Virus record (IMG/VR): IMGVR_UViG_3300027499_000018
Span: 1 to 34,305 of that record
DNA length: 34,305 nt
From: a virus
Strand: one strand, 5' to 3'
This document shows, piece by piece, positions 5,494 to 30,405 of this stretch; the first letter of the stretch is position 1; each line of letters starts with the position of its first letter. The notes below the pieces were generated by a model that saw only the letters and a program-made list of their open reading frames with translations, had not been told where the DNA came from and made no database searches. The position numbers and the translations under genes were made by a program.

Positions 5494-5513
5494 GGTAGCA
5501 GAAAGGAGTGGTT

Positions 5514-6575
5514 ATGGCTATCTACAAGCGGGGAAAGACGTGGTGGTACAACTTCGGCGTCAAGGGTCAGGTCTATCGCGGGTCTTGTAATACCGGCGAT
5601 GAGAGGCAAGCGCAGGAGTTTCACGACGAACTGAAGGCGCAGGTCTGGAGGGGCAAGTTCCTGAAAGAGTCTGTCCGCAGGACGTGGGATGAAACCCTCA
5701 AGCGGTGGCTCAATGACCATGAACACAAGCGTACACATCACGAAGATGTGAAGAGGGGTGAGTGGTGGACTGCAAAGTTCAAGGCTCGCAAGGTCAAGTT
5801 CCTAGACGAGATCAATGCGGACGTTGTCCGGTTGATTCGAGACGAGGAGATTGGCAGACCTCGGCAAAGGAATGGGAAGCCTATTGCTCCCGCCACGGTC
5901 AATCGAAAGATTGCCCTACTCAGAGCGGTTATCAATGCCGCCGCCCGTGAGTATCAGTGGCTAGATCAAGCGCCCCTGTTCCGATGCTTGCCAGAGCGCA
6001 ATGAGAGGGTGAGGTTCCTGTCTCCGGCGGAAGTCCAGCGACTTCTGTCTGCGATGGAAGAACCCTACCGTTCGATGGCGATGCTGGCGGTAGCAACTGG
6101 GCTACGTCTGGGCAACATCAAGGATCTGACTTGGCAACAGGTGGACTTTGGAAGGCGCCAGATGACGTTTCCCGGGGTTGTCATGAAGAACGGAATGGCA
6201 TTGACCATCCCAATCAACGAGACAGCCTTGCAAGCGTTGCGACCGTGGGTCGGTAAGGATGATGTAAGGGTCTTTGTGAAACCCGATGGAAAGCCTGTAC
6301 GGGAGGTTCCGTCGAAGATGTGGAAGAAGGTCTTGGATAGGGCTGGAATCGACAACTTCAAGTGGCATGACCTCCGGCACACTTGGGCAAGTCTGATGCG
6401 CCAGAGCGGCGAGGGCTTGGACAAGATACAGGAACTGGGTGCGTGGCAGGATGCGAGGATGGTGAGACGCTACGCTCACCTATCAGTCGACCATTTAGCC
6501 AAGGCTTCCAGTGCAATCGACCGGGTTTTCGAGCCGGAGTCAGAGGCTTGTGTACAAATACGACACAGTGCCTAA
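5514..6575 (+). CDS. int: Tyrosine-recombinase integrase
   Basis: 353 residues, the site-specific recombinase for integration and excision. An N-terminal arm-binding-type domain (about 1-55) and a SAM-like core-binding domain (about 55-160) precede the catalytic domain. Catalytic residues are visible: R198 in GLRLGN, K225, H285-x2-R288 in HDLRH, W311 in GAWQD at the position of the second histidine, and nucleophile Y320 in RRYAHLS. ATG 5514 is chosen over GTG 5508 because AAAGGAG (5502-5508) ends five bases before it. The gene has its own promoter and ends 41 bases before the tRNA-derived attP core. Its last codons contain one of the arm-like repeats. Confidence 0.95.
   Translation: MAIYKRGKTWWYNFGVKGQVYRGSCNTGDERQAQEFHDELKAQVWRGKFLKESVRRTWDETLKRWLNDHEHKRTHHEDVKRGEWWTAKFKARKVKFLDEINADVVRLIRDEEIGRPRQRNGKPIAPATVNRKIALLRAVINAAAREYQWLDQAPLFRCLPERNERVRFLSPAEVQRLLSAMEEPYRSMAMLAVATGLRLGNIKDLTWQQVDFGRRQMTFPGVVMKNGMALTIPINETALQALRPWVGKDDVRVFVKPDGKPVREVPSKMWKKVLDRAGIDNFKWHDLRHTWASLMRQSGEGLDKIQELGAWQDARMVRRYAHLSVDHLAKASSAIDRVFEPESEACVQIRHSA
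6548..6561 (+). repeat. Arm-type site candidate P1
   Basis: TTGTGTACAAATAC occurs here inside the 3' end of int and again at 6770-6783, on the opposite side of attP. Its TACAAATAC core also occurs inverted at 6664-6672. Repeats flanking a core suit the N-terminal arm-binding domain of an integrase. Confidence 0.65.
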
Positions 6576-6799: not shown

Positions 6800-7024
6800 A
6801 TGGGAAAGATGAAGCAACAATGCGAAGAGTTGGAACAAGCCTACTTCGAGTTATCCACAAGGTATCAGTCTGAGGTTGGTGAACCTCGTCGGCTTGCTTT
6901 GCAAGCGCGTGAGTACCTGAACAAGTTTGACTGGGAGTCGATCAACGAGCCACCAGAACTCCGAGAAGTTCTGGCGCTCGTCAATCAGATCGCCAATCGG
7001 TTCGATCAGAACTTGTCGTCGTAA
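6800..7024 (+). CDS. Small helical protein next to attP
   Basis: 74 residues, unrecognised, predicted mostly helical (KQQCEELEQAYFELSTRYQS, then a Leu-rich second half ending NRFDQNLSS). ATG 6800 follows AAGGAAAAG with suitable spacing; the longer frame from TTG 6770 would be coded by the arm site and is less likely. It is the only plus-strand gene beyond attP and overlaps the end of the giant minus-strand gene by 19 bases, tail to tail. In the prophage it would sit at the end opposite int, a common place for accessory (moron) genes. Confidence 0.55.
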   Translation: MGKMKQQCEELEQAYFELSTRYQSEVGEPRRLALQAREYLNKFDWESINEPPELREVLALVNQIANRFDQNLSS

Positions 7025-10000
7025 CCTAGTTCGACGGCTCGTTTGACCAACTGAGCGGCATACTTCCGCTCTCTGGCTTTCGACTCGTTGATAGCCTTGA
7101 TCAGCACGTCCTCAGGAATGCTCTTGTCAGCCCGGGCATTCTTGATGGACTCCCGCTCACTCATGGAGAACTTCCTCCACTGCTCGACGACTCCATGCAT
7201 ATCCGCCAGATTGGGGAACCTTGCACGGTATTTCTCTTGGTCGGCATCGCTCATGTCCTTGAGGGCTGAGTAGCGGGTCTCCACATACTCACTGAGTTTC
7301 CGCAACGCACCAATGTCGTAGCCTTCCGGCGTTGTAGAGGTGAGCCTTCCAATCAGCGGCATTGCCTTGGGTGGAACTTCGTACCCAAGAGACTTGCGGT
7401 AACCAACGTCCATTGCCTTGAAAGCGTCGCTCGGCAGACCCGGCACATAAGACCTGAACAAGTGGTCCAGCAATGCTGGGTTGATGTCGAACATCTTGTT
7501 CTCTGCTGGCAAAGTCTGCGTACCACCAGCCATCTCGTGGATCTTCCGAGTGATAAACCGGGAGAAGTACGAGGTGGACTCGAAGTACTGCTCGGATGCT
7601 GGCGGCTTGTTTGGAATGAACCCCGGGGACTCCTTGTAAATCGGAGAACCAAACCGGTTTTCGTTCATCATCCACTGGACCACTGGCTTCCCAAGGGTGG
7701 GGGTGACGTTCTTACCCATCCAGCCAAAGAAGGTGGAGGAGTCATCCCCGCCAAACACAGAGTAAGCACCAAGGAAAGCCTTGATGGCGGACAAGCCAGC
7801 ATCTGCTGTCGACTTGTTCATCAGCACCGTGTTAGCCAACTCCACGCCAGCGGCGTAGAAGAAGTTCCAGCCATAGGGCAACGGGATAGACAGCATGGTT
7901 TCTTCCGCGCCCGGGATCGGCAGAACAATCGAGGTATGACGCTTGTACTCTGGTTGCTTTTTGATCTTCGGAACGCCGTCCTCATCCTCGCCGCCTGCGG
8001 CAAGCGAGTATGCGGTAGCGGCAAAGCCCAAGACCATGAGGCTACCGGCAGTCTTCATAGCCATCTGGCGAGTAGCGGGATTCTTGAACGCACGGTAGAT
8101 GCGCTCAGTACCCTGCACAGCGGGGTTGAAGAACAGGTAAGCGGCAGAGATACCCTGTTGCTTGCCCTTCATGTTGAAGTTGACCGTCAACTCCTTGGCA
8201 TACTGGGCGGCTTGGTCCTTGGAGAACCCGTTTTCACGCAGTACCTTGTAGGCGGCTAGGCGAGGCGCGGCTTCAATCGTCTTGTTGAACGTCTCAAGAC
8301 CACGGAATACTGCACCGATCCCATCGATCGTCATGCCGCCAGCCTTAGACAAGATGCCGGACGCACCTTGTGCCTTGGCTACCTTGGCAATTGCCTTCTC
8401 CATCTGGGCTGACACATCGCCAACGGTGTCCATGTTCAGGAAGTGGGTCAGACCGCCTGCTTCACGCAGTTCGTTGTAGTACTTGACGTACACATCGTTC
8501 TGATTGCCAGCCCCGGTCAGGAACTTCAGCGCACCTTTCCAAGAGTTCTTGGTTTCGGTGAACATCTTGATGGCTCGTTCGTTACCGAAGTCAGCACGAG
8601 AGTTGTAGAAAGCGGTCTGCATATCTCGCATACCGTTGACCACCACCCAGTCAGGTGCATACACGGTCACCAGCGCAGAGGCAAAGTGATTCCAGCGCAT
8701 TGCCGCTTTGATGATCCAAGACATCTCGCCTTGGTTGTAGAGACCGCCAATAGCGTCAGCGAATGAATTCTGGGATTTGTCCATGAATTCAATCTTCACG
8801 TCCTGACCGTTGCGTTTAACAACCAGCGCACCGTTCTTCTGGTCCCACATTGGGTCGCCGACATAAGCCACGTTCCCGTTCTTGTCGAGAACTGCCTTGC
8901 GCTTGAGCGGCTGAACCACGGCAAAGTTGGGATCAGGGTTTTCCTCAATCATCTTGAGGACTGATTCAGCAACTCGGTTCTTCTCTGCTCGAATGATCTT
9001 CGCCTCAAAGTCTGCAATCGTCCGAGCCAGCACGTTGGTTGCGCGGCTTGTACGTCCGGTTGCGGCTTTGATCTCAGACCCACGCAAGTTAAAGCGTCTG
9101 CCAAAGTTGGGGATGTCCTGATCCTCCAGCGCATCCAGACCAGACAGGTTGACGTAGTGCTTCATCTTGGCAAGAGCGTCACGCTGGGCTTGAGAAATCA
9201 AGCCAGCATCAAACATCAACTGGGGCTTGGCTTCCGCCATCGCGTCAATCAGTCGACCGATCTGCTCCAACTCCATGCCATACGGCTTGTTCTGCACGTC
9301 CGTCAGGATCTGGTTGGCTTCCGCATCAGACATACCGGAGTCCTTCTTCGAGTTCCGCTGACGCAGGATCTCGTTACGAACAATGGCGTGACGTGCGTAC
9401 AAGTAGTCGTCAATTTCCTTCAGAGAACCACCAGCCTTGGCAACTGCCTTGGCAAGTTCTGTGATGGGCTTAACGTACTCGTTGTTGAAGTTGTCCAGTT
9501 TTGCGCCAGCACGACCGTGATACAGGATCAGTTTCTGCCAGACATTGGCGTCGTCAGAAAGCCGCTCGTTTGCACGAAGGTTATCCACATAACGCTTGAT
9601 CGGGAGGTACTGGTTCTGCGTGTAGATGACGATGTCGTCAATCTTGCGCTGGATCATCTTCTTGAATGCGCTCTGGTTCTGTTGCGTTGCAACCATGACC
9701 TGAGGCGAGGCAGGAGTCCTGCCCGGATAAGCCTTCATCGATGTGATTTGCACACCCGGGACGGTCTTCAAGACATTCATCACGTCGTCAATCTTCTTGG
9801 CGTATTGCACGTTGTGCTTGCCAGTTCGGATGTCGGCGTTTGGATTGGTGAAGATAGTCCACTCTTGGAGGATCGGGTCGTACACAGCCAGACCGTGGGT
9901 CTTGTCACCTTTCTTGGCGACAACTTCCACCGGACGTGACTGCTGTTTGCGCGAGTAAAGAGCAGGACTCTTGGGCGACGGCTCTTTCTTGACGATGCGG

Positions 10001-13000
10001 ATCATCTTCGGGTCGTATACGACCAGATTTGGATCTTCATCTTTCGAGCGTTGAGTCTCCCAGTGGAAACTACCTTTGACCCCACCCTCAGACATCTCGC
10101 TTGCCACATCTAGTTTGGCGGCATTGACATCCGACTGATTGCCACGGCTGTTGCCAAACATATTGGCTCGTTTGTACTCAACCAAAGCGTCATACGCCCA
10201 AGCGAATGTTGGGTTGTTTGGATCGAGGGCAGTGCGGTTACCAGATGAGCGGATATTTGCGGCAAAGTTCGGGTCTTCTGCGGCAAGTTTCAGCACAGAC
10301 TTGATGTATGGTCTGTCGGCAAAGAATTGCTGGACGGACTTGGGACCATCAGAAATCTTCCCGTCCCACTGGGCAAAGTTGTCGGAGACAACCTTGTCAT
10401 CAATCTCCACCACATACTTCACAGGATCGCCAACTTGGTTGATCTTCCAGTTGGCAATCTCACGAGCCTTGGAAATAGCCTCTGCGTATGCACTGACAGC
10501 GTCCATATCGCCATCGTTCTCGGCAACTTCCATCTCGGCTTCCATGCGGCTCTCGTACTCGCTGGCAACCTTCTTCAGGATTGGGCTTAAATCGTCCAGT
10601 TTTTCCAGACGGGCGGCATAAGCAAGACGCTTTGTCTCTTCCACAATCTCAAGAACAGCGTTTGCCTGAGGTGCCTCCAAAACTCCAGCACTTCCGCCGC
10701 TGTCGATTGCATCCTCGATGTGCTGGTTTATAGACTTTGGATTCCCACGACGAGGCACGAGACCGGCAGAGCCGAGATTCACCCGCATCAGGTAACCCTG
10801 ACCAAGGTTTGTATCACGATAGAAGTAGACGCCGCCAGAGTAGACGGAGTCACCAAAGCCTGAGTCCTGAACGCTATTGTTCAGTACGAACTCGTCGAAG
10901 TTGGCTTGGCTCAAGTGTCCTGCGCGTAGGAAGAGGGCAGTGCCAGTGGTGCTGAAGGTGAATGGGTTGCCGTCTTTTGCATACTGACGTGCATCTGCCA
11001 GCACCGATGCGACCTCGACCTCAGAGACATTGTCGAGATACTCAACAATGCTGTCCCAGCCCATAGACTCGGCAAAGTCCCGAATCATGACCAGCACTTG
11101 TTTGAACAGACCCAGTTCCTGACCCTGTGCGTTGAGGTTAGATAGACCCTCCTCAATAGCCAGCAGTCGGTTTTCTGCGTCCCATTCCTTGCCAGCGTTG
11201 TCAGGACGGTTTTCGTCCAGCCAAGCCTTGGTAGCCTCACGCACACGATTACTTGTGGCATAGGCTCTGTTCAGGAATGCGTTGAGTTTGTCGCCAAGAA
11301 TGCCACGCAAGCCGTAGTGACCGTAGGTCTCATGGAACAGGGTGAACTCAACGTCCGCGCCAGAGAACATATTGTCGGCAAAGAGGTACACCGTGCCGGT
11401 CTCTTGGTCGAAGTAACCTTGAGCAACGCCATCGGGGTTGCGCTCGATGTCTTTAGCCAACCGATCCTTAATGGATTGGGGCAAGTCAATCTCAGCGTTT
11501 ACCACCTCGATGTTGGGGGCGTTGGTCCAGCCCTTAGTCAATTGCTTGACCATTGCGTAGACAGAAGCCACGGACATACCGCCGCCACCCGTGCCAGCAC
11601 CTCGGCTAAACAGGTTGGCTGTGTCACCACCAGAACGCTCGATGTCGCCAATAACTCCGAGCAACTGCTCGTAAGAAATCTCAACACCTTCAGCGTCTGC
11701 GCCGTACTCATCGATGATGTCGATGTATCGCTTGTATTCAGCACCACGCTGGCGCATCCGTTGAGCCAAGTCCATTGCCCGGTCTTGACGCTCTGACCAC
11801 TGCTTATATCGAGCGACCTCGTCATTCGACAACCGGCTCAAAATCTGACCCTCTAGGTCTGGTCGGTTGCTGATAGCGGTAAAGATGGATTCAAACCAGA
11901 CGTTCGAACTGTCAGCGACACCACCGCCCAAGCGCAGGATTGCCCTGTACATGGCGTTGCTGGTATCAACGTCAGGGTTGCGCTGGCGCAGATACTCCAA
12001 CGGACGCTCAAACAGGGCTAGGTTGGGGTAGTCATTGAAGACATAACCGGAGAACACAAAGTCCGGGTCGTTCAGCAAGGCTTTCAGTTGCTCTTGCTTG
12101 ATGGACTTGTCCTTAGTCGCTTGGCGCAACAGGTTTAGACGCTTGCTCTTGCCTTCCTTCCAAGCCTCATAGGCTTGAAGTTCCGAATCCTTGATGGAAT
12201 CCAGAATGTTTTGGCGTAGTTCAACGTCCTTGTTCTTCGACGCCTTCCGTAGTGCGGCATCCAGTGACCGGAACCACTTGTCCTTTGACAGGAATCCAAG
12301 TCCGCCGCCGGACAAAAAGACTTCAGGGTCTTTCGTGTCCGTGAACTCATCTAATCCAAACTCAGCAAACGGCTTACCGGCAAAGTTGGACAGAACGTCC
12401 TTCGACCCCTTGGGTCTGCCAGTCTTAGTGCCAGACTCAACCACTTCCTCTGGGGTGAATTGAGCCTCATCCAGTTCGGTTGCGTTGTCACGGTTCTCGA
12501 TGCGAGTGATGGTCTCGTTGCCGCGCCCCAGAACTTTACGAGCGTTGTCGATGATCCGGTCAACTGCCTTCTGCGCTTGCTCACGAGACTTGCCAGTCTG
12601 CTCAGACTGAGCCTTTTTGACCAAGCCCTCTGCCGCACGGACATCTCGCGCTAGATTGTTCAGCGAAGACTTCACCCAAATACCAATCGATGTGTTCGGC
12701 GCAATCTCTGAGGCTCTGGTCTCAAGTTGTTTGGCAAGGCTACCCAACGCCAAAGCAGATTTTTCCAAGAAACTTGCCGATACATCTGATGAGATCCCCT
12801 CCGTTACTCGAACGATTGAGTCATTGACGTACTTGTTGACCGCTCCGATTTCCTCGGTAAGAACTTCCTTCTTGACCGCGCCACGGCTTGGTCGTTTGTT
12901 CTTAGCCTTCATCTGGGCATCTTGCTTCTCAGCCTCAATCCGGTTCAGTTCCTGACTGATGCGGTTTGTGAGGGCTTCAGAGCCACCAGACTCAGCCTTG

Positions 13001-15447
13001 GCTTGCTCGTTGGCTTTGTTTTCCTCACGGGTGCGAACAGCCTGCTCAACCTTGGACGTCAGTTGAGCCGCACGACCAGCGTTAATTTGCTTTGCCTTCT
13101 TTGCATCGGCAATTTTTGCCTTGGCTTCGTCAGCAGTGATCCGACCAGCCACAACATCCTCTTCGAGGATGTCCAGCGAGGCATCGCTTCTAGCCGCTTG
13201 GCGGTTCTTCTTGTTGGTCTCTTTGTTTGCCTCACGTTCTTCCTGCTTCAATTCACGGTTGGCTTGCAACAGGTCGCCAACAACACCTTGTTGTTTGCGC
13301 TTGCTGACACGCTTGGCTTTAGTAGCACCGGGTGCTTCAGTAGTAGCCGTGCTGTTATCGGTGGTCGTGCTTAAAGCCTCGTTAGCCAGAGCCTCGCCTT
13401 TGGCGGCAGTCTCACGAGCCTTGCTTACAGCGGCTTTGCCCTCGGCAATTGCTTGCTCGATGGCGGAGGTTTCCTCCGCTGTCAGACTCTCACCACGAGC
13501 GGCTTTCTCCTGTGCCATCTTGGTCAGGTCGTCAATGTTCTTGGAGGTTGATTCCAAGTCCGTTGTTGCGCCGCGAGAGCGGCGACCCTTGCGAGGTTTC
13601 GGGGTGGTTTGTTTGGCTACCTTTGCAGTGGTATCCGCTACTTGCGTTTCGCCCCCGCCTTGGACAGTGCTATCGCCACCGCCTGTTTCTGTGCCGCCTG
13701 TTTGCTCTGCGGTTTCGACGACCCCAGTTTGCCCGTCTGTTTGAACTTGCTCATCAGTTCCGACACGTTTGCTTTTACGACCCTTTGGCTTTTGCCCGGT
13801 TTCAGCGGCATTGGTTTCTCCAGACTGAATAGGTTCGATCTTGGCGGCGAAAGAAGCGGGAACAGTAAACGAACTGCCGTCAGGCATCTTTGCTTCAATC
13901 ATGCCGTTAGCCAGCATGGTCCCCTCATACACCTTTCCAGCCGGATCGGTGATACGGACCGAGGTCGATTGAGGCTGAGTCTCAGTAGTTGCCGGAGCCT
14001 CAGTGGTGGCATCGGCAGTCTTCTGATTGCTTGCTTTTAGATCAGCCAAAGCATCGTCAGTCACGGCAGACAGAGAGCGATTAACCACACCAATGAAGGC
14101 TTGGTTCTGCTCAACAATCTTTTGCCCTGATTCAACTGTCTTCTTGTCTTCTAGCGCAGACTGGAACTTGTCTGTCAGACCCGCGCCCTCGACAACAGCA
14201 TCAATTTTTGTCTTCACCTCAGGAGTTGCATCCTGATACATTGCGGCAAATACACTCAGACCACGGTCTGTGTTCACCATCTGGTTGAGTCGATCGACTC
14301 CAACCGTGACGCCATCCATTGCCTTATCTCTAGCCTCTTTGGCTCGATCGGCTTTAATCTCTGAGCGAGTTGCAAGAACATCAACAGGTGCGGTCAACGA
14401 TTCACCGAAGAATTCCAGTGCGAGTTCGCCGAACTTAGGATCTTCGCCGACAGACTTAGCCGCCATGTAAGCACCGGTAGCACCACCAGTACCCTGAATA
14501 ACAGCCTGAGTTCCGACGTTTGCCGTAGCGGCTAGAGTTGGACTGGCAAAACGGCTGGCAAATGGATTGAACGCCATGAATGCACCAGCGACAGCGTTGG
14601 CTGGAACTTCAGCAAGCGTCTTGGTGGTGGCATAATCTTTAGCCGCTTCGGTGTCTCCGCCAAACTTTTCCAAGCCCTCGACGTAGTTGCTACCCAGCGA
14701 CCCAGAGACAACGGCAATAGAGTTGATTGCCGCACCCTTGGCAGCCATCTCAGTGCCTCGCACGATAGCGCCCTTTACAGCGGCACTTTCAATTGAGGAG
14801 AGCGCACCACGGGTCACCAGTCCTCTGGCGATCCCGGTAGGCACTGCGGCGGCAGGGTTGCGAAGGGCAACAGCCGCACCCAAGGCAGGAACTTGCTCAC
14901 CCAAGAAGTTGACGATTGCCCCCGGGTTGTCAACAAAGAACCCGAGCATCGCCTTGGAGCCTTCATAGGTTCCAGCGACTACTCCATCTTCTTTGTCGAA
15001 TGACTCTGATGCAACCTCGATTGCTTTGGCAATCCGAGGGTCAGACTTCATTCCCAAGTACTTTTCGGCTGATGCCGCCAGAATCTGCTCAGTATCCTTG
15101 GTGTCTCCGGTGACAGCCTTTTCCAGTTTGTTCGCCAGAAAGTCCCATGTGAGCATGACACCTTGCCAACCCTTTTTAACGGAGTCGACAAAGCCGACAC
15201 CACCGCTGGGGTCGTTAGGGTCTACTGCTGGCTTTGGCTTCTCTGCCAGAGGGGTGTCATTTACCGGCTCACCAGTTTCAGTAGGGATGTCCGGCGCACC
15301 ATAGCGGCGTTGCATCTCCACCATTGTTTGAGGACGTGCGATACCACGACGGACTTCGTCCTTCGCAGTATCGGCGTCCTTGAAAACTGGGGTGGCACGG
15401 ATACCAAACTGTCGTGAGTATTCGTTGACTTCGTTTTCTAGTGCCAT
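7006..15447 (-). CDS. Giant polyvalent virion-associated protein (zincin motif, ART-like and LPD38-like regions)
   Basis: 2813 residues, probably packaged and ejected with the DNA. Visible in order: a polar N-terminus; Ala/Gly-rich hydrophobic stretches (about 175-350); a low-complexity Thr/Glu/Gly linker (about 480-640); long Lys/Glu/Ala-rich coiled-coil-like stretches (about 640-900); a zincin motif HETYGH followed by YGLR at 1372-1381 (HExxGH form); a region at about 1504-1821 resembling ADP-ribosyltransferase-like domains of polyvalent proteins, opening ALFLRAGHL, with SGGVYFYRD, and closing NLVVYDPKMIRIV; a helical region with RWNHFASALV, VVVNGMRD (about 2250-2275) recalling the LPD38 domain; a hydrophobic segment near 2468; and a charged helical C-terminus. 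AAGGG lies eight bases before the ATG. It is the last gene of the late cluster, after two ejection-like proteins. Domain names are by eye. Confidence 0.8.
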   Translation of the reverse strand: MALENEVNEYSRQFGIRATPVFKDADTAKDEVRRGIARPQTMVEMQRRYGAPDIPTETGEPVNDTPLAEKPKPAVDPNDPSGGVGFVDSVKKGWQGVMLTWDFLANKLEKAVTGDTKDTEQILAASAEKYLGMKSDPRIAKAIEVASESFDKEDGVVAGTYEGSKAMLGFFVDNPGAIVNFLGEQVPALGAAVALRNPAAAVPTGIARGLVTRGALSSIESAAVKGAIVRGTEMAAKGAAINSIAVVSGSLGSNYVEGLEKFGGDTEAAKDYATTKTLAEVPANAVAGAFMAFNPFASRFASPTLAATANVGTQAVIQGTGGATGAYMAAKSVGEDPKFGELALEFFGESLTAPVDVLATRSEIKADRAKEARDKAMDGVTVGVDRLNQMVNTDRGLSVFAAMYQDATPEVKTKIDAVVEGAGLTDKFQSALEDKKTVESGQKIVEQNQAFIGVVNRSLSAVTDDALADLKASNQKTADATTEAPATTETQPQSTSVRITDPAGKVYEGTMLANGMIEAKMPDGSSFTVPASFAAKIEPIQSGETNAAETGQKPKGRKSKRVGTDEQVQTDGQTGVVETAEQTGGTETGGGDSTVQGGGETQVADTTAKVAKQTTPKPRKGRRSRGATTDLESTSKNIDDLTKMAQEKAARGESLTAEETSAIEQAIAEGKAAVSKARETAAKGEALANEALSTTTDNSTATTEAPGATKAKRVSKRKQQGVVGDLLQANRELKQEEREANKETNKKNRQAARSDASLDILEEDVVAGRITADEAKAKIADAKKAKQINAGRAAQLTSKVEQAVRTREENKANEQAKAESGGSEALTNRISQELNRIEAEKQDAQMKAKNKRPSRGAVKKEVLTEEIGAVNKYVNDSIVRVTEGISSDVSASFLEKSALALGSLAKQLETRASEIAPNTSIGIWVKSSLNNLARDVRAAEGLVKKAQSEQTGKSREQAQKAVDRIIDNARKVLGRGNETITRIENRDNATELDEAQFTPEEVVESGTKTGRPKGSKDVLSNFAGKPFAEFGLDEFTDTKDPEVFLSGGGLGFLSKDKWFRSLDAALRKASKNKDVELRQNILDSIKDSELQAYEAWKEGKSKRLNLLRQATKDKSIKQEQLKALLNDPDFVFSGYVFNDYPNLALFERPLEYLRQRNPDVDTSNAMYRAILRLGGGVADSSNVWFESIFTAISNRPDLEGQILSRLSNDEVARYKQWSERQDRAMDLAQRMRQRGAEYKRYIDIIDEYGADAEGVEISYEQLLGVIGDIERSGGDTANLFSRGAGTGGGGMSVASVYAMVKQLTKGWTNAPNIEVVNAEIDLPQSIKDRLAKDIERNPDGVAQGYFDQETGTVYLFADNMFSGADVEFTLFHETYGHYGLRGILGDKLNAFLNRAYATSNRVREATKAWLDENRPDNAGKEWDAENRLLAIEEGLSNLNAQGQELGLFKQVLVMIRDFAESMGWDSIVEYLDNVSEVEVASVLADARQYAKDGNPFTFSTTGTALFLRAGHLSQANFDEFVLNNSVQDSGFGDSVYSGGVYFYRDTNLGQGYLMRVNLGSAGLVPRRGNPKSINQHIEDAIDSGGSAGVLEAPQANAVLEIVEETKRLAYAARLEKLDDLSPILKKVASEYESRMEAEMEVAENDGDMDAVSAYAEAISKAREIANWKINQVGDPVKYVVEIDDKVVSDNFAQWDGKISDGPKSVQQFFADRPYIKSVLKLAAEDPNFAANIRSSGNRTALDPNNPTFAWAYDALVEYKRANMFGNSRGNQSDVNAAKLDVASEMSEGGVKGSFHWETQRSKDEDPNLVVYDPKMIRIVKKEPSPKSPALYSRKQQSRPVEVVAKKGDKTHGLAVYDPILQEWTIFTNPNADIRTGKHNVQYAKKIDDVMNVLKTVPGVQITSMKAYPGRTPASPQVMVATQQNQSAFKKMIQRKIDDIVIYTQNQYLPIKRYVDNLRANERLSDDANVWQKLILYHGRAGAKLDNFNNEYVKPITELAKAVAKAGGSLKEIDDYLYARHAIVRNEILRQRNSKKDSGMSDAEANQILTDVQNKPYGMELEQIGRLIDAMAEAKPQLMFDAGLISQAQRDALAKMKHYVNLSGLDALEDQDIPNFGRRFNLRGSEIKAATGRTSRATNVLARTIADFEAKIIRAEKNRVAESVLKMIEENPDPNFAVVQPLKRKAVLDKNGNVAYVGDPMWDQKNGALVVKRNGQDVKIEFMDKSQNSFADAIGGLYNQGEMSWIIKAAMRWNHFASALVTVYAPDWVVVNGMRDMQTAFYNSRADFGNERAIKMFTETKNSWKGALKFLTGAGNQNDVYVKYYNELREAGGLTHFLNMDTVGDVSAQMEKAIAKVAKAQGASGILSKAGGMTIDGIGAVFRGLETFNKTIEAAPRLAAYKVLRENGFSKDQAAQYAKELTVNFNMKGKQQGISAAYLFFNPAVQGTERIYRAFKNPATRQMAMKTAGSLMVLGFAATAYSLAAGGEDEDGVPKIKKQPEYKRHTSIVLPIPGAEETMLSIPLPYGWNFFYAAGVELANTVLMNKSTADAGLSAIKAFLGAYSVFGGDDSSTFFGWMGKNVTPTLGKPVVQWMMNENRFGSPIYKESPGFIPNKPPASEQYFESTSYFSRFITRKIHEMAGGTQTLPAENKMFDINPALLDHLFRSYVPGLPSDAFKAMDVGYRKSLGYEVPPKAMPLIGRLTSTTPEGYDIGALRKLSEYVETRYSALKDMSDADQEKYRARFPNLADMHGVVEQWRKFSMSERESIKNARADKSIPEDVLIKAINESKARERKYAAQLVKRAVELGYDDKF

Positions 15448-15456
15448 GACCAGCCC

Positions 15457-16977
15457 TTACTTGATTTTGCCGTTTTTGATAGCCTCGTAAATCACTCGCG
15501 GAGGAGGTGGGTAACGACCAGCAATGAGTTCGTCGTAGTAAATCTCTTGCGCTCGGGCAATGCGAGAAGCAACTGCCGACTCCTCAGACTTCCGTTTCTT
15601 CCCGTCGATAGCCAACTCATTGTCAGCCTCGATTCGCTTCTGCTCTTCCTTGCTGAGTGCTTCGATGCCGGCAGATCCACGATTCATGTACAACTGGAAC
15701 AACTTGTCGTCGTCACGCTGTGCGCGATCCTTGCCACGAGAAGCCAAGTCTTGAGCCTGAAGATCAAGACCGCGCTCACGATATAGGTCGTCACGCTCTT
15801 TACCCTCTTGCTCAATCAGAGCCTTGGCGGACAGAGTGTCCAAAGCCAAACGACGAGGGTCAAGCGTGATAGTCGAGCCGTCTTGGAATTTAAGGTCGAA
15901 GACCTTCTTTTCCAGCATCCTCTTGCCATTCGGATCTCTTGGGTCAATTTCTTTGGAGATGCGAGTTTCCACATCGAAGTCACCAACGTCATCGCCAAAC
16001 TCTTTGTAAAGTTTTTTGCCCTTCTCAATATTCCCAGCCGCCATTGCAGATGCCGCTTGGAATACACCTTCCTTCTTCATCGCGGCAAGAGTGTTCACTG
16101 TTGTCATCAGAGAAGATCCGGTGACTTTCTCGTCAGCCCAATCAATCATTGACAGACCGGTAATGACGTTAGAAAGATTCTTGAAGTTGGACACCTTGTT
16201 GAACAGAGACTCCGCTGTCTTTGGATCTTTTTGAGCCAACTCTTGGAAAGGGGACTTCTGTGGTTCAGCCGCAGGTTTTGCTGACTCACCGCTAGGAGTA
16301 ACCGTAGTGCCATCTGTCGGGGTGGCAATGCCAGCCCTCTGATTTACAGGAGCCGAAACCGGCATCATGTCGATTGGAGTTGCTACGCCAGCACGACTTG
16401 CCACGGGATTAACTTGGACATCAGCGCGACCGCGACCGCCCTCAAATTCAGTGTACTCTTGTGCGCTACCGTAACCTAGACGACGAGCCTCGTCGTCAGT
16501 GATAGGGGCAACACCACCCATCGAGCCGTTGTTATACGCCCGAATGCCATACCGACGAATGGTGTCCTCATCAATGTAGGCACCATCAGCGGCTTCCAAC
16601 ATATAGCCGGGTTGAGCCAGTCCTTGACGGGATGGATCAAGCGATGGATCTTCAAAATCAACGCCAGAAGAAATCTTCATGGGCTTGATGCCATTGCCGG
16701 ATTGAGTACTCATGCCAGACTGTGGCGTCATGGATGGAGGCGGCTTTGCAATTGCGGCATCAGGTGCCTTGGGAGTCTCGACACCAAAGATGGAGCCGCC
16801 CATCCAGCCCATCATCTTCTCGGCGAAGTCGTTACGGCTTTTCTTTCTGCGAGTATCTTCCTTGGTGTCGGCGATACGAGCATCGTAGTACTCACCAACC
16901 TTGTCTTGGTACTCTTTGTCCTGCTTGAGTTTCTTTGCGGACAGGTAGCCGCTGGTTAAATCATATGGATTTGCCAT
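15457..16977 (-). CDS. Probable ejection/internal virion protein
   Basis: 506 residues, no recognised catalytic domain. The N-terminal 50 residues are Lys/Asp-rich and helical (LSAKKLKQDKEYQDKVGEYY). A Pro/Ser/Gly-rich middle contains a short duplicated phrase (RAGVATP and RAGIATP). The second half is helical, with KNLSNVITGLSMIDWADEKV and a charged region ending in a Pro-rich stretch. The ATG directly follows the stop of the previous gene, with GGAGAAAG as ribosome site. It lies between another structural-type protein and the giant gene, a position typical of ejection proteins of short-tailed phages; that role is inferred. Confidence 0.55.
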   Translation of the reverse strand: MANPYDLTSGYLSAKKLKQDKEYQDKVGEYYDARIADTKEDTRRKKSRNDFAEKMMGWMGGSIFGVETPKAPDAAIAKPPPSMTPQSGMSTQSGNGIKPMKISSGVDFEDPSLDPSRQGLAQPGYMLEAADGAYIDEDTIRRYGIRAYNNGSMGGVAPITDDEARRLGYGSAQEYTEFEGGRGRADVQVNPVASRAGVATPIDMMPVSAPVNQRAGIATPTDGTTVTPSGESAKPAAEPQKSPFQELAQKDPKTAESLFNKVSNFKNLSNVITGLSMIDWADEKVTGSSLMTTVNTLAAMKKEGVFQAASAMAAGNIEKGKKLYKEFGDDVGDFDVETRISKEIDPRDPNGKRMLEKKVFDLKFQDGSTITLDPRRLALDTLSAKALIEQEGKERDDLYRERGLDLQAQDLASRGKDRAQRDDDKLFQLYMNRGSAGIEALSKEEQKRIEADNELAIDGKKRKSEESAVASRIARAQEIYYDELIAGRYPPPPRVIYEAIKNGKIK

Positions 16978-18030
16978 TTACTTTCTCCGGATGCCGTATT
17001 TGCGCTGTTCTTGAATAGCCGCTGGTGTGTGGTAACGATCTAGCAGTTTGTCGAAGAACTCGACACCTTTCTTCTGCACCACGTCAGCCGGAATAACGTA
17101 CTCACCCTTGGACAACATCGCAGGGATTGAGTCAGATGTGGTTGTGCCGGGACCACGAACACGTCCCTTGCCGTCTTGGTCGAGGGCAGGCTCATCAGTA
17201 CCGCCCGGGGTTCCGTCAGCGGCAAAGAACATTGCCCCTGCGTTGATTAGTGCGGCAGTCTGTTGGGCTTGCATATCGTAGGACTTCAGACCGTAGTTGC
17301 TGATTGCCCCATAGATGTTGCCAGCCTGACCAAGAGCATTAACACCAGAGTTGGTGAACTGGTTGGCACTAGCCATGCCAGCGTTGTACGAGTTGTTCGC
17401 ACCAAACTGAAGACCACCAGCCGCATTGCCAGCATTCACTGACCCACTAGCCGCAGTTGCGGCAGTTCCGGGCAGACCCTTACCAATGTTTACGGCATTC
17501 ATCCGACGCTGGTCACCAGCATCACGAGCCGCATAACGGGCATTGGTCATGGCACTAGCCGTTTGACCGGCTTGTTGCGCCGACAATTGGCTGTTGATCG
17601 CCGCTAATGCGTTGGCGTTCGGTCTGAGACCGAATCGGGCTTGAGACCGCAGTGCTTGTTGCTGTGCGCCACGGAACCCTTGGGCAATATCCCCACGAGC
17701 CAGAGAGGCGTATCGCTCTTTCTCGGCATCGGTATCGAACCCCAAGGCGTCCTTGGCAATCCGATCCTCGATGGGAGCGTAGGTCTTTTGGTAGCGGTCA
17801 TACTCGCTTTGAGCAACGCCACGCTGGGTGTCCATCAGTCCCATCTGGGACTTGATCAGATCAGCCGTGAGCGCATCGGTCTTTTCGGCACGAGCCTTTT
17901 GATACTCTAGTTGCTCTCGACCAAGTTCCACCTGTGCCAAGCCAACTTTCTCAGAAGCGGCGGCGGTGGCTTGCATTCCCGGATTGGGATCTGGCGGTTC
18001 ACCGAAAATCAGATCACGCACGAAACTCAT
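16978..18030 (-). CDS. Virion protein with tape-measure-like C-terminal motif
   Basis: 350 residues. ATG 18030 is chosen (MSFVRDLIFGEPPDPNPG): GAGGT lies seven bases upstream and the start overlaps the GNAT stop by ATGA; an in-frame ATG at 18102 would lie inside the GNAT gene. Residues about 20-130 form a Gln/Glu-rich helical part, and about 150-265 are Ala/Asn/Gly-rich. The C-terminus has GPGTTTSDSIPAMLSKGEYV followed by IPADVV. I associate that motif with the ends of phage tape-measure and ejection-apparatus proteins. It is likely an internal virion or tail-interior protein. Confidence 0.65.
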   Translation of the reverse strand: MSFVRDLIFGEPPDPNPGMQATAAASEKVGLAQVELGREQLEYQKARAEKTDALTADLIKSQMGLMDTQRGVAQSEYDRYQKTYAPIEDRIAKDALGFDTDAEKERYASLARGDIAQGFRGAQQQALRSQARFGLRPNANALAAINSQLSAQQAGQTASAMTNARYAARDAGDQRRMNAVNIGKGLPGTAATAASGSVNAGNAAGGLQFGANNSYNAGMASANQFTNSGVNALGQAGNIYGAISNYGLKSYDMQAQQTAALINAGAMFFAADGTPGGTDEPALDQDGKGRVRGPGTTTSDSIPAMLSKGEYVIPADVVQKKGVEFFDKLLDRYHTPAAIQEQRKYGIRRK

Positions 18031-18437
18031 TTTGGATACCTCGTAGTTAGATTTGTGAGTTTGAATAACATGGTGCTGTGGTTGGCACTGACTAAGTGCC
18101 AATCATGTCGCCGTATGAAACGAAGCACCTTTTCGTTGTCGCGGCTCACAATTGCGTACAGAGGGTCGTTCTGTGCGAACGCCCACTTGAATGCGGGGGA
18201 AAACAACTGCCCCCATCTCCCGTGATACTCAGGGAGTACCGACAGATGCAACTTCTGACCATTTAGGACCAGACCTCCTACGCACCTGCCGTCTACTTCA
18301 AAACCTACCGATGGAAGCAAATCCATCGCCTTACAGTAATCTTCCTTGCCAAGACCAAACTCGCAGGACAACTGCTTCTCTGAAGCCATCTCAGCCTCAT
18401 ACATCACTTCGGAGTTAACCTTGTTTAAGAGCCTCAT
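18027..18437 (-). CDS. GNAT-family acetyltransferase-like protein
   Basis: 136 residues. The C-terminal half matches the GNAT fold: LHLSVLPEYHGRWGQLF corresponds to the acetyl-CoA-binding motif region (V-x-PE-x-RG-x-G type, here with HGRWGQ), followed by the helix FSPAFKWAFA and VLRFIRRHDW near the end. The N-terminal part is short. It sits inside the late cluster and overlaps both neighbours by ATGA. Phages often carry such a gene among structural genes; the acetyl acceptor is unknown. Confidence 0.7.
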   Translation of the reverse strand: MRLLNKVNSEVMYEAEMASEKQLSCEFGLGKEDYCKAMDLLPSVGFEVDGRCVGGLVLNGQKLHLSVLPEYHGRWGQLFSPAFKWAFAQNDPLYAIVSRDNEKVLRFIRRHDWHLVSANHSTMLFKLTNLTTRYPK

Positions 18438-26715: not shown

Positions 26716-28389
26716 CTACGACCAGTTTGATCCGTAGAAATTCACGGCAAAGTTGTATGTAGCGTTTTGCCAAGAGTAAGTTCCTGAGTAAACCCCTTGA
26801 CCACCAGAGTCTGCTACTGACTGACTTTGTCCACTGCGACCCCAGAAAGAGGTGTCAATAGATACGTTGCTACTGCTACCAGTGAAACTGACGCCGCTAG
26901 TTCCCATGCTGATGTTTGAAAGGACATAATTCGCTTCCACGTTTGCGCCACTGTATGAACTCATCCAGTCAATTGAACCGCCGCCATAAACCAGAGAACT
27001 GTAAATACCGGCGTAACTGTTGTTATTGTTGTCATACACCCACGAAAACTTATCGTACCCGCTAGTGCCACCCGGTCTCTTTGTTGGAGAAGAACCGCAA
27101 TTTTTGATCACGCAGTTTTGGATCTTCAATCTGGTAGTCGAAGAGTAGGCTCCGAAGTTGTCTTCGTTCATTCCAAAAATTGCTGTCATGTAGTTTGAGG
27201 ACATTCCCTCACTGCCACCGTTCAAGTCTCTCTCAAGAATGCACCCAATAACAGCGCAGTTATCACTTCCTAGTGCGAAATGGAAATCCCTGTTTGCCGA
27301 TCCGGGGTTGTAATGAACGATATAAGTCTTCCCCGGGTAGCCAATGATTCGGAGATTCATGCGTCTAGTTGCGTTACTTGGAGTGAAAGATGCCACCCCG
27401 TAGTTACCAAGGTTGTATGCATTCCCGGTTAAATAATGCACTTCCGGCGACAGCACAATTACGCCATCGTTTCCGGCTACCGAGACAGCCTTAGGAATTG
27501 TCCCAAATGCAGTAGCCCTGCTTGTCCCATTGTTGTTGTCGCTTCCTGATGTGGCGTTGACGTAGTAAACGGTATTCCCGGCGTTCGTAACAATGGATTG
27601 GTAGGCGGCTGGCAGTGCAATCTGCGGCTGGACTTTGATCGAGTAGGCTCGTTCAACATAGTTACCCGCGTTATCAGTCGCTCGAATGGTGAATGAAGAA
27701 GTTACTTCCGAGTTGCCGGGGCTTCCAGCCGTTCCAGACACAACTCCTGTTGAGGTGTTTAACGAAAGACCAGATGGCAAAGAGCCTGACACAAGAGAGT
27801 ATGTGACAGTGGAGCCAGCATCAACATCTGTGGCATCAAGGGTAAGGCTTACAGACGCACCGCCAACATACGTCCCAGCCAACCCAGCAGAAACGTTAAA
27901 TGTTGGACTTGTTCCGGTGGTAATTGCCCCATCCAATTGAGAAGAAAGACCAGTTGGATTTGTGACCTTAATCGTGAGTGGTCCGTTGGCTACTGTAAAG
28001 TCTTGCGGTGTCGTGACCACAATACTGGATGTGCTGTTAACAGAAGTGCTGGCTGGAGAAAATTCAGCCCCACTAGAGGTGATAATTTTTACAACCGCAC
28101 TAGCCTCAAAATTACTTCCACTTAGCGTAAAAGATGTACCAGACTCCCCGTTGTATGCATCTGGTGATACGGCAGTAAGCACCGGAGGTGCGGCAATTGG
28201 AGTCCAGCCAATAGAGTCATACACCTCATTTCTGCCGAGTGTGCTGTTATAACGAACCATGCCCTCAGAAGCGGTAGGACGTTGTGCCGTGGTTCCGTTA
28301 GGAACCCGAATAGCGGCAGTGCCGCCAAAGGTAGCCACACCAGATGTGCCTCCGCCCAAGAGGGCGGCAAGGTCTCTTGCTTTAGTCAT
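26716..28389 (-). CDS. Tail fibre/spike with IPT and Ig-like domains and beta-helix-like C-terminus
   Basis: 557 residues, a likely host-binding protein. Order: a short N-terminal attachment part with the fibre phrase GTTAQRPTASEGMVRYNSTL (about 32-52), an IPT/TIG-type domain (about 70-150, PPVLTAVSPD to TNPTGLSS), a putative-Ig domain (about 165-260, with YSLVSGSLPSGLSLNTSTGV), and a C-terminal region (about 275-557) rich in Asn/Ser/Gly with repeated beta strands (YYVNATSGSDNNNGTSRATA), typical of right-handed parallel beta-helix surface proteins. GGAG lies six bases before the ATG. It shares the IPT-Ig core with the next fibre gene. A polysaccharide-degrading role is possible, but no catalytic residues can be assigned. 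Confidence 0.75.
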   Translation of the reverse strand: MTKARDLAALLGGGTSGVATFGGTAAIRVPNGTTAQRPTASEGMVRYNSTLGRNEVYDSIGWTPIAAPPVLTAVSPDAYNGESGTSFTLSGSNFEASAVVKIITSSGAEFSPASTSVNSTSSIVVTTPQDFTVANGPLTIKVTNPTGLSSQLDGAITTGTSPTFNVSAGLAGTYVGGASVSLTLDATDVDAGSTVTYSLVSGSLPSGLSLNTSTGVVSGTAGSPGNSEVTSSFTIRATDNAGNYVERAYSIKVQPQIALPAAYQSIVTNAGNTVYYVNATSGSDNNNGTSRATAFGTIPKAVSVAGNDGVIVLSPEVHYLTGNAYNLGNYGVASFTPSNATRRMNLRIIGYPGKTYIVHYNPGSANRDFHFALGSDNCAVIGCILERDLNGGSEGMSSNYMTAIFGMNEDNFGAYSSTTRLKIQNCVIKNCGSSPTKRPGGTSGYDKFSWVYDNNNNSYAGIYSSLVYGGGSIDWMSSYSGANVEANYVLSNISMGTSGVSFTGSSSNVSIDTSFWGRSGQSQSVADSGGQGVYSGTYSWQNATYNFAVNFYGSNWS

Positions 28390-28398
28390 TCAAAACTC

Positions 28399-30405
28399 CT
28401 ATGCAAAACTGCTTCGCGTCTTGTTGTAGATGTCCGCAATTGCTCCAGCACTCAATGGAGTGTTGTAATAGCGCAAGTCTGCTTGCATCTTGTAACCGGC
28501 ATTGCCTGTCGCATAAGTGCCGGGCAAGCCGCCAGATGTCCCGTCTCCACGACCGTTAAAGTTCACCGTTTGACCGGAGCCAATAGACGGCCAAGTTCCG
28601 GTATTGCTAAGGCTATGAGATTGAGAAACTCCATTCAAATAGATGGCTATCGCGCCATTCGTATATGTGATGCCTATGTGAAACCAAACGCCCTTGTTGC
28701 CGTTAGACCCACCTGAAATGTTTGGAGTTGTCCAAGAGCCTTGACCCGCTGAATTGGCGTAATGCTGTAAGTAAACATTGCCAGTGCCATTTGTGTACCA
28801 ATCGTGCGCCACAAAAGCATTGCCGTTACCGTTGCCACTCCAAGAGTGGAATGTTGGGCTGAAAACGTTACCGCTAGTATTTGCGCTGCGATCTTCCCAC
28901 ATGATCCAATAACAGATAGTGTGGTTGCCACTGTTGCCTGCAAAGACGCTATTGTCTGTCGGCAGTGGTAGCCAAAATGAGTCACCTCCGTCGCACATAT
29001 AAGCGTACTGATCTTTTTGCTTGGCAAGCGTATTCAAACCAGAGACGCCGCCTTGGGCATCAAGTATGAACTTGGAACTGCTAACTGGACTGGAGTTCTG
29101 ATTTGACGAGTCAATGACCATCGAGTTGATGACTCGAACCACGCCACTCTGGTCATAACTTGAGGCGTACTTTGCCGCTGGAAGTGTTTGACCTTCCTTG
29201 TTTCCGGTGGACTGCCCATTCCAACCGGCTCGAAGCCATAGTTTCAGGTTGGGTTCATAAGCCGCAGACTCGTCATCTGTTACATTGATTTGGAATGTTC
29301 TGGATGTTGAATCAGAAGCGGAGTTCGCAAGCACAGCAAACGAAGTATTGGTATCGGAAGATACCGCAGAAGGCGCTCCAGAAATAACTCCGGTGGAAGA
29401 ATTCAAAGACAAGCCGGAAGGTAGGTTGCTACCTGATGCAAGGGAGAAAGACACTGATGTGCCATCTGGATCTGATGCCTGCAAAGTGGTGTTCTGAAGT
29501 ATCTCCCCCTCGTAAAGAACAGATGGGACCAACTGACCACTTGAGGTGGTCCAAGTCGGCGTCGATCCAGCGTCTAGTGCATCCGACAAATTCCCACTCA
29601 AGCCAGATGGGTTGGTCACCAAAATTGAGTACGGCTCTTTACCGGCTGGCAGATACGTTGATGGGGTCTGTGCAGTAATTTGTGTGGAAGAAACAAATGT
29701 CACCACAGGCGAGTTGTACTCAGTGGCGTCGCTACCAACAAATTTTACGGTTGCACCAGAGGCAAAAAACAGACCGTTAATAGTGATCTCTTCATTGGCA
29801 GTGGTAGTGGTGGTCGGAGATATAGAAGTCACCAATGGAGGCGAGTCTAATTGCTTCCATGCAGAACCATCATAGTACTCAGCCAGCGATGTGGTGGTGT
29901 TAAACCGAATGTTGCCAGCCTGAGGTGACGCAGGTCTTTGTGCTGTTGTACCGGCTGGCAAATCAAAATATCCAGTACTCGTATTGTTTTGGTCGCTTAC
30001 CGAAGTGGGGGTGGGCTGAGCAATCGTTGACCAAGATGGGTCGGTGCCGTCAGTGGTCAAATACTTTCCAGACTGACCAGTCTGGCTTGGCAGAGTCTCT
30101 TCGTTGATGCTCATGTAACGAGCATCAGCCTCCGCCTTGGTGTACCCATCAGACAGACCACGGGGCAGATAGGCAACACACTCGACAACGTCATCCGCAG
30201 AGGCGGCGGCAGTCAGTACGACTGTCGTGCCATTGGATGCCGTGTAGTCTTCACCAATAATCAGTTTGACACCGTTCTGGTACACGTCGATGTACCCGGG
30301 CGTGTAGCCACTGGACGGTGTGAATGTAGTCTGACCAGAGGTAGCCGTGAACGTACTTACAGTACGTTGCGACGATACCCCGGGTGCGTTGCCGATATAA
30401 GCCAT
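28399..30405 (-). CDS. Tail fibre with IPT, Ig-like and lectin-like C-terminal domain
   Basis: 668 residues. The N-terminus (MAYIGNAPG, then a beta domain with YIDVYQNGVKLIIGEDY) is a common fibre attachment module. PSQTGQSGKYLTTDGTDPSW (about 106-125) and GTTAQRPASPQAGNIRFN (about 152-169) follow, then an IPT domain (about 190-275) and an Ig-like domain (about 290-385, with NLPSGLSLNSSTGVISG). The C-terminal about 270 residues (KLWLRAGWNG, then GVWFHIGITYTNGAIAIYLN and DLRYYNTPLSAGAIADIYN) match a LamG/concanavalin-A-like lectin fold. It is expected to bind surface glycans. AAGGA precedes the ATG. Confidence 0.8.
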   Translation of the reverse strand: MAYIGNAPGVSSQRTVSTFTATSGQTTFTPSSGYTPGYIDVYQNGVKLIIGEDYTASNGTTVVLTAAASADDVVECVAYLPRGLSDGYTKAEADARYMSINEETLPSQTGQSGKYLTTDGTDPSWSTIAQPTPTSVSDQNNTSTGYFDLPAGTTAQRPASPQAGNIRFNTTTSLAEYYDGSAWKQLDSPPLVTSISPTTTTTANEEITINGLFFASGATVKFVGSDATEYNSPVVTFVSSTQITAQTPSTYLPAGKEPYSILVTNPSGLSGNLSDALDAGSTPTWTTSSGQLVPSVLYEGEILQNTTLQASDPDGTSVSFSLASGSNLPSGLSLNSSTGVISGAPSAVSSDTNTSFAVLANSASDSTSRTFQINVTDDESAAYEPNLKLWLRAGWNGQSTGNKEGQTLPAAKYASSYDQSGVVRVINSMVIDSSNQNSSPVSSSKFILDAQGGVSGLNTLAKQKDQYAYMCDGGDSFWLPLPTDNSVFAGNSGNHTICYWIMWEDRSANTSGNVFSPTFHSWSGNGNGNAFVAHDWYTNGTGNVYLQHYANSAGQGSWTTPNISGGSNGNKGVWFHIGITYTNGAIAIYLNGVSQSHSLSNTGTWPSIGSGQTVNFNGRGDGTSGGLPGTYATGNAGYKMQADLRYYNTPLSAGAIADIYNKTRSSFA

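Follow-up and report, generated by a model that had tools for sequence, protein, structure and literature searches.

Phage polyvalent proteins, as described in the available text of Iyer et al. (2017), are giant, multi-domain proteins encoded beside virion genes, with a zincin as hub and with ADP-ribosyltransferase (ART) and LPD38 domains among their parts (PMC5512222). Two other described giants are close to them: JC1 gp69, the DarB-like protein of Bcep22-like phages, which has an LPD38 module, a zincin upstream of it and a similar gene order (PMC9144972), and the N4 gp50 virion RNA polymerase, an ejected podovirus protein (PMC12633501). The presence of zincins in so many injected phage proteins has lacked a settled explanation since the auto-processing proposal of Iyer et al., for which the accessible part of that paper names no sites (PMC5512222). 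Here, we analysed a protein of 2,813 amino acids encoded in IMG/VR record IMGVR_UViG_3300027499_000018, positions 1 to 34,305 (34.3 kb; this whole stretch is referred to below as the window). The protein is a phage polyvalent protein of the kind described by Iyer et al. and an ordinary member of that class, which also provides a useful new lead on how the class is built: comparison with its relatives suggests that the zincin adjoins a slot in which cargo domains are exchanged and which has possible cutting sites on either side.

The gene, and the central and C-terminal parts of its product, comprise the following features.
7006–15447, minus strand: giant polyvalent-protein gene, 2,813 amino acids, ATG start (open reading frame list and motif check)
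11602–11610, minus strand: F1280-S-R, border tripeptide just ahead of the zincin, candidate processing site
10948–11601, minus strand: HEXXXH-type, zincin-like metallopeptidase domain, residues 1283–1500 (alignments; present in many relatives)
11317–11334, minus strand: HETYGH, residues 1372–1377, kept in ~60 of 62 sequences
11149–11154, minus strand: E1432-E1433, with E1433 the presumed third zinc ligand (59 of 62)
9970–10947, minus strand: divergent long ART-PolyVal-like cassette, residues 1501–1826 (profile match, controls, structure matches)
10915–10917, minus strand: H1511, ART strand-1 His, in 62 of 62 relatives
10825–10827, minus strand: Y1541, Tyr of the ART GxYF, in 60 of 62 relatives
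10012–10014, minus strand: D1812, candidate third ART residue (the choice of this D is inferred), D in 47 of 66 relatives
9949–9957, minus strand: Y1831-S-R, border tripeptide just past the ART-like cassette
9643–9948, minus strand: conserved linker domain, residues 1834–1935, ahead of the C-terminal module, common to L019, L078, L056 and L072
7009–9642, minus strand: conserved C-terminal module, residues 1936–2813, with 28 invariant columns in 42 sequences
8623–8697, minus strand: RWNHFASALV...VVVNGMRD, residues 2251–2275, with five invariant residues
7354–7962, minus strand: LPD38 (PF18857), residues 2496–2698, 96.1 bits against a cut-off of 27 (E 3.5e-27)

The initial annotation, made from the sequence alone, had presented this gene as one large reading frame for a polyvalent protein. 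This description was correct: zincin, ART-like region and LPD38 occur together in the 2,813 residues, and the gene lies among late virion genes. The frame is real, running from an ATG at 15447 to its end at 7006 with a coding-like G+C content at the three codon positions (0.59/0.42/0.61); the coordinates were right, and the strand, which had been omitted, is minus. The quoted motifs sit at the residues given for them (HETYGH 1372–1377, ALFLRAGHL 1504, SGGVYFYRD 1537, NLVVYDPKMIRIV 1807, RWNHFASALV 2251, VVVNGMRD 2268) and, judged by the conservation counts and the shuffled and reversed controls below, exceed chance. LPD38 was the sole domain found in a Pfam scan of the whole protein.

HEXXXH zincins are a named metallopeptidase subtype of polyvalent proteins in the available text of Iyer et al. 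(PMC5512222). The zincin motif that had been read from HETYGH alone was upheld by alignment of 62 sequences, including that of the window, in which H1372 is kept in 60, E1373 in 62, H1377 in 60, G1379 in 61 and the downstream E1433 in 59 (the relatives analysed, here and below, are those without toxin genes). In the AlphaFold2 model the predicted local distance difference test (pLDDT) score of the zincin part is mostly above 80, and the predicted order of helices and strands agrees with a zincin core (helix, three strands, two helices); the PDB zincin matches were weak, MATCAP and lethal factor being the only biologically sensible ones returned by Foldseek. The protein shares the HEXXXH zinc motif with the MATCAP tubulin carboxypeptidases (PMC10499314; Foldseek probability 0.30), but these are eukaryotic and have no sequence match; the likeness is a motif analogy only. 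The zincin-only alignment was too diverse to serve as a search query. In two related phage contigs the zinc ligands have been lost (L029 NEIYGN, L031 NEIYGQ, both without E1433); these rare cases also lack the border F/Y-S-R after the zincin, and represent natural inactive versions.

In the closest relatives by C-terminal module (L019, L078, L056, L020 and L072), the zincin runs directly into the linker, without residues ~1497–1824, and the ART-like region is therefore a discrete cassette. The spacer between zincin and module was shorter than 120 amino acids in 28 of 63 non-redundant proteins carrying both, while Pfam matches in the 34 longer spacers comprised ART-PolyVal (15), LPD3 (5), GNAT (4), LPD37 (3), MuF-C (2), PBECR1 (2), and one each of RadC, methyltransferase and phosphoribosyltransferase. 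When the position of ARTs was scored in 61 proteins, 18 of 19 fell into the slot between zincin and C-terminal module, which represents 13% of the residues outside these two parts (p about 1e-15 if the proteins were independent, which relatives are not). The slot of the Marinobacter giant L108 resembles a phosphoribosyltransferase, with a Pfam score that does not reach the cut-off (L108:8044-8946), and this protein also has a long ART ahead of its zincin. Effectors in uncharacterised giants could thus be located between the zincin and the LPD38 module.

The zincin and the ART-like cassette of the window protein are bracketed by F1280-S-R and Y1831-S-R. Across the relatives, the tripeptide [FYM]S[RK] was found ahead of the zincin in 11 of 52 proteins (1.8 expected under random placement), after the zincin in 14 of 52 (2.5 expected) and ahead of the C-terminal module in 14 of 37 (2.2 expected), an approximately six-fold enrichment at the zincin and module borders. 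The reversed motif gave a count of 0, and substituted motifs lacked such an excess, except that [FYM]A[RK] showed a weaker one after the zincin. The serine of the motif is encoded by codons of both families (19 TCN and 22 AGY; 26 distinct 9-mers of 41), which places the selection at the amino-acid level. A DNA-level recombination seam was ruled out as the source of the motif by these mixed codons. Neither the position of ARTs in the slot nor the F/Y-S-R borders were found in the available text of Iyer et al. (PMC5512222). Together, the rule for the slot and the tripeptide at the borders supply testable residues (F1280-S-R, Y1831-S-R and E1373) and a testable fragment size.

From conservation and position, the zincin, slot and borders likely constitute a putative self-processing release cassette. 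We give about an even chance to the reading in which the protein is a virion-packaged ejection protein whose zincin cuts in cis at the borders and frees the ART-like cargo. The giant chain would be stored in the phage head and ejected together with the phage DNA; the zincin would then cut in cis at the F/Y-S-R borders at 1280 and 1831, freeing a ~550-residue zincin-ART piece into the host cytoplasm, where the ART would modify a host protein or nucleic acid. For the window phage we infer packaging, ejection, cutting, ART activity and its target: the packaging and ejection steps are favoured by analogy with homologues, the zincin cut by conservation and motif position, and the ART action by residue conservation. 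That ejected giant phage proteins in general share such a standard self-releasing cassette (an HEXXXH zincin plus a swappable slot that most often holds an ART, cut in cis at [FYM]-S-[RK] inside the host) is a bolder proposition, which we regard as possible and on the unlikely side.

Several observations weigh against release by self-cutting. The border tripeptides are absent in many relatives, including the close L019 and L078 with their active-looking zincins, and are also found, though less often, where there is no zincin. The slot and motif counts were drawn from related sequences. The window cassette, from which HG[ST]P is missing and in which GEGAQAYG is incomplete, may be catalytically dead, and whole-model searches with Foldseek and VIA-align did not assign a PDB fold securely to the domains. 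The main counter-example is the N4 virion RNA polymerase, which bears a zincin yet is packaged unprocessed, according to the available text of Iyer et al. (PMC5512222). With this precedent, the [FYM]S[RK] borders may be a habitual linker sequence in a chain that acts uncut, and some excess of the motif is indeed seen before C-terminal modules without an HEXXXH zincin (11 of 72, against about 3.7 expected). We place this explanation a little short of an even chance. The motif before the C-terminal module is commoner in proteins with an HEXXXH zincin (26/65 vs 11/72, p 0.002) and where the slot is filled (19/35 vs 6/27, p 0.02), both p-values being optimistic because the motif was noticed in the same data as tested; and the mixed codons show that it is at least no DNA recombination seam.

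The strong constraint on the active-site residues would also suit a zincin that is itself the effector, cutting a host protein after injection and having no role in self-cleavage, an option listed in the available text of Iyer et al. (PMC5512222). The initial annotation had likewise proposed a protease that disarms the host. This was not supported: the fixed place of the zincin by a variable slot, together with the border tripeptides, fits action on its own polypeptide better, and we consider a zincin effector quite unlikely.

Residues 1499–1835 were matched by a profile, nearly over its full length, that was built from 71 long domains of the ART-PolyVal type collected via relatives L108, L162 and L035 (Pfam ART-PolyVal scores above the cut-off in L035 and below it in L108 and L162). 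The score was 21.7 bits in the whole protein and 29.3 bits for the isolated segment, compared to at most 9.5 bits in 3,049 shuffled or reversed controls. Structure matches were to models of viral polyvalent proteins (best E 3.6e-15), with an ART-PolyVal-like protein at 8e-7. Conservation extends over 330 residues (H1511, Y1541, F1542, Y1552, W1694-D1695, G1789, G1792, R1800, N1807, V1809 and D1812), and the residues H1511, Y1541 and D1812 fit the H-Y-D arrangement described for polyvalent ARTs in the available text of Iyer et al. (PMC5512222). The cassette thus resembles ART-PolyVal (PF18760)/Tox-ART-HYD2 in its H, Y and D positions and in the order of conserved blocks of the long variant. It differs in the lack of a direct Pfam match, the loss of HG[ST] and a length ~190 residues above that of the Pfam model, an excess that is in part a helical insert. 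Compared to the proteins in the accessible part of Iyer et al. (PMC5512222), the window protein is new, and its ART is divergent and long.

Direct searches with the ART region (Pfam, NCBIfam, phage tblastn) found nothing, a BLAST comparison of the cassette with four long ARTs gave no significant match, the short ART-PolyVal profile was marginal (E about 0.02 for the first block) and a PARP14 match to the ART block in the PDB sequence-profile search was too weak to trust (E 0.36); only the profile of long ARTs revealed the region. At residues 1511–1514 HGTP is replaced by HLSQ, whereas the relatives keep both G and P (62/62 each). The similarity weakly points to a divergent ART-PolyVal relative, and in this form the ART-like region of the initial annotation stands, with its HG[ST]P core lost. 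We refer to it as ART-like and do not file it as a member, because no direct match exceeds the Pfam cut-off; since the motif is lost, its catalytic competence is only putative and its activity that of a candidate. A virion-packaged polyvalent protein in which the cassette is degenerate and has a binding or structural role only would account for this loss, for the partial retention of GEGAQAYG, for the lack of a Pfam match even at E 10 and for the 15–20% identity to relatives. Inactive domains are known in the class, e.g., the inactive PBECR in Mu MuF (PMC5512222, available text). We nevertheless hold degeneration to be unlikely, as the residues listed above, H1511 to D1812, are retained beyond what drift after loss of function would leave. 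In the structure search, the best row for the ART part (model m4d2cfaf1ddee 193–552, equivalent to ~1472–1831) was a pre-ejectosome chain of cyanophage A4 (9k3a_B; Z 10.0, 183 residues, root-mean-square deviation 5.6, no sequence match), for which the helical insert may be responsible.

What stays constant among the relatives is the C-terminal module with LPD38, ~880 residues, whose most likely role is in packaging or ejection. The initial annotation had linked an LPD38-like region to the RWNHF...RD motif. The domain is certain, but it begins ~220 residues past this motif, which lies inside the conserved module and outside LPD38, with T2261, P2265, N2271, R2274 and D2275 invariant across the 42 sequences. 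PHROGs 14770, 616 and 10691 span residues 1936–2813. The AlphaFold2 model of the module is mainly helical (pLDDT 82, predicted template modelling score 0.80) and had no secure PDB match; a PDB sequence-profile search with the C-terminal module, ART and zincin parts found no trustworthy relative, the coiled-coil and designed-helix matches appearing compositional. In N4 gp50, a zincin-motif domain (C1) is followed by a large helical C2 without known relatives (PMC12633501), an order similar to that in the window protein, although no RNA polymerase module was found in the latter and the helical parts are likened by architecture. Relatives of the module are encoded in hundreds of viral contigs and many proteobacterial genomes, and in Stx-converting phages too. 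For three (L147, L149 and L172) the contig bins are labelled Phycisphaerales, Sphingobacteriales and a Nitrosotalea archaeon, probably by mis-binning.

The virion association proposed earlier is supported by homology. JC1 gp69 matches the C-terminal module (4.5e-79) and has its zincin at the same relative place (7.8e-10), and mass spectrometry of purified JC1 virions yielded 51 unique gp69 peptides and a score that was second highest among the virion proteins (PMC9144972). By analogy, the giant protein very probably travels inside the virion and enters the cell together with the DNA. The two proteins differ in that gp69 is longer (4,515 amino acids), has HEAFH (HExxH) where the window protein has HExxxH, and contains transglycosylase-like and helicase/methylase-like parts. 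In the window protein, no transglycosylase domain was found by the Pfam scan, and neither an SF2 helicase plus methylase dyad nor a single-chain RNA polymerase module was matched in Pfam and PHROGs.

The N-terminal part of the protein and the neighbouring genes include the following features.
14368–14940, minus strand: Ala-rich hydrophobic stretch, residues ~170–360, with the highest hydropathy peak (1.44, residue 177)
12868–14040, minus strand: charged low-complexity linker, residues ~470–860 (sequence and composition)
15457–16977, minus strand: 506-amino-acid gene directly upstream of the giant gene, with the place and size of that for virion protein JC1 gp68
16978–18102, minus strand: virion structural protein, 374 amino acids, phrog_8003, homologue of virion-borne JC1 gp64
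5508–6575, plus strand: integrase, convergent with the giant gene (phrog_1, 4.2e-60)

The Ala-rich stretch might make a possible membrane contact. This stretch, the place of the gene as the last virion gene of a podovirus-like cluster, the rank of JC1 gp69 among virion proteins and the single match to the cyanophage pre-ejectosome chain would all suit a chain that is mainly an ejectosome part (an inner-membrane/periplasmic channel, T7 gp16-like), with the zincin and ART as minor passengers. We rate this as rather unlikely: cargo swaps over many enzyme families point to effector delivery, and the Pfam scan found no transglycosylase domain. An ejectosome role and effector delivery are mutually compatible.

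As annotated, the gene is the last of the late cluster; it follows two candidate virion genes, of 506 and 374 amino acids, and faces the integrase. Nine bases separate it from the 506-amino-acid gene, whose product had no sequence match to JC1 gp68. JC1 gp64, a virion protein, matches the 374-amino-acid protein (5e-23). The start called for the latter frame is a TTG; the end of the gene upstream agrees better with an ATG that lies 24 codons further in, near 18030 (MSFVRD). A short C-terminal stretch of its product resembles many tape-measure proteins in PHROGs.

A 54,437-bp contig includes the window sequence at 100% identity; it encodes the identical (100%) 2,813-amino-acid protein and, in its remainder, terminase, portal-like, major capsid and primase/helicase proteins. 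A search of viral contigs with the window protein alone returned this same virus and no other match. A temperate lifestyle had been predicted, and both the integrase and a repressor-like gene (316–768) are present; with the head genes on the larger contig, these identify the source, on gene content, as a temperate tailed phage. Homology to podovirus JC1 suggests a short tail. The rest of the larger contig also encodes an amidoligase-like protein, an unusual phage cargo, on the strand opposite the head genes (L011:7887-9359). Two neighbouring tail-fibre-like proteins in the window (26716–30405) have a common pattern of Ig-like repeats and are possibly duplicates.

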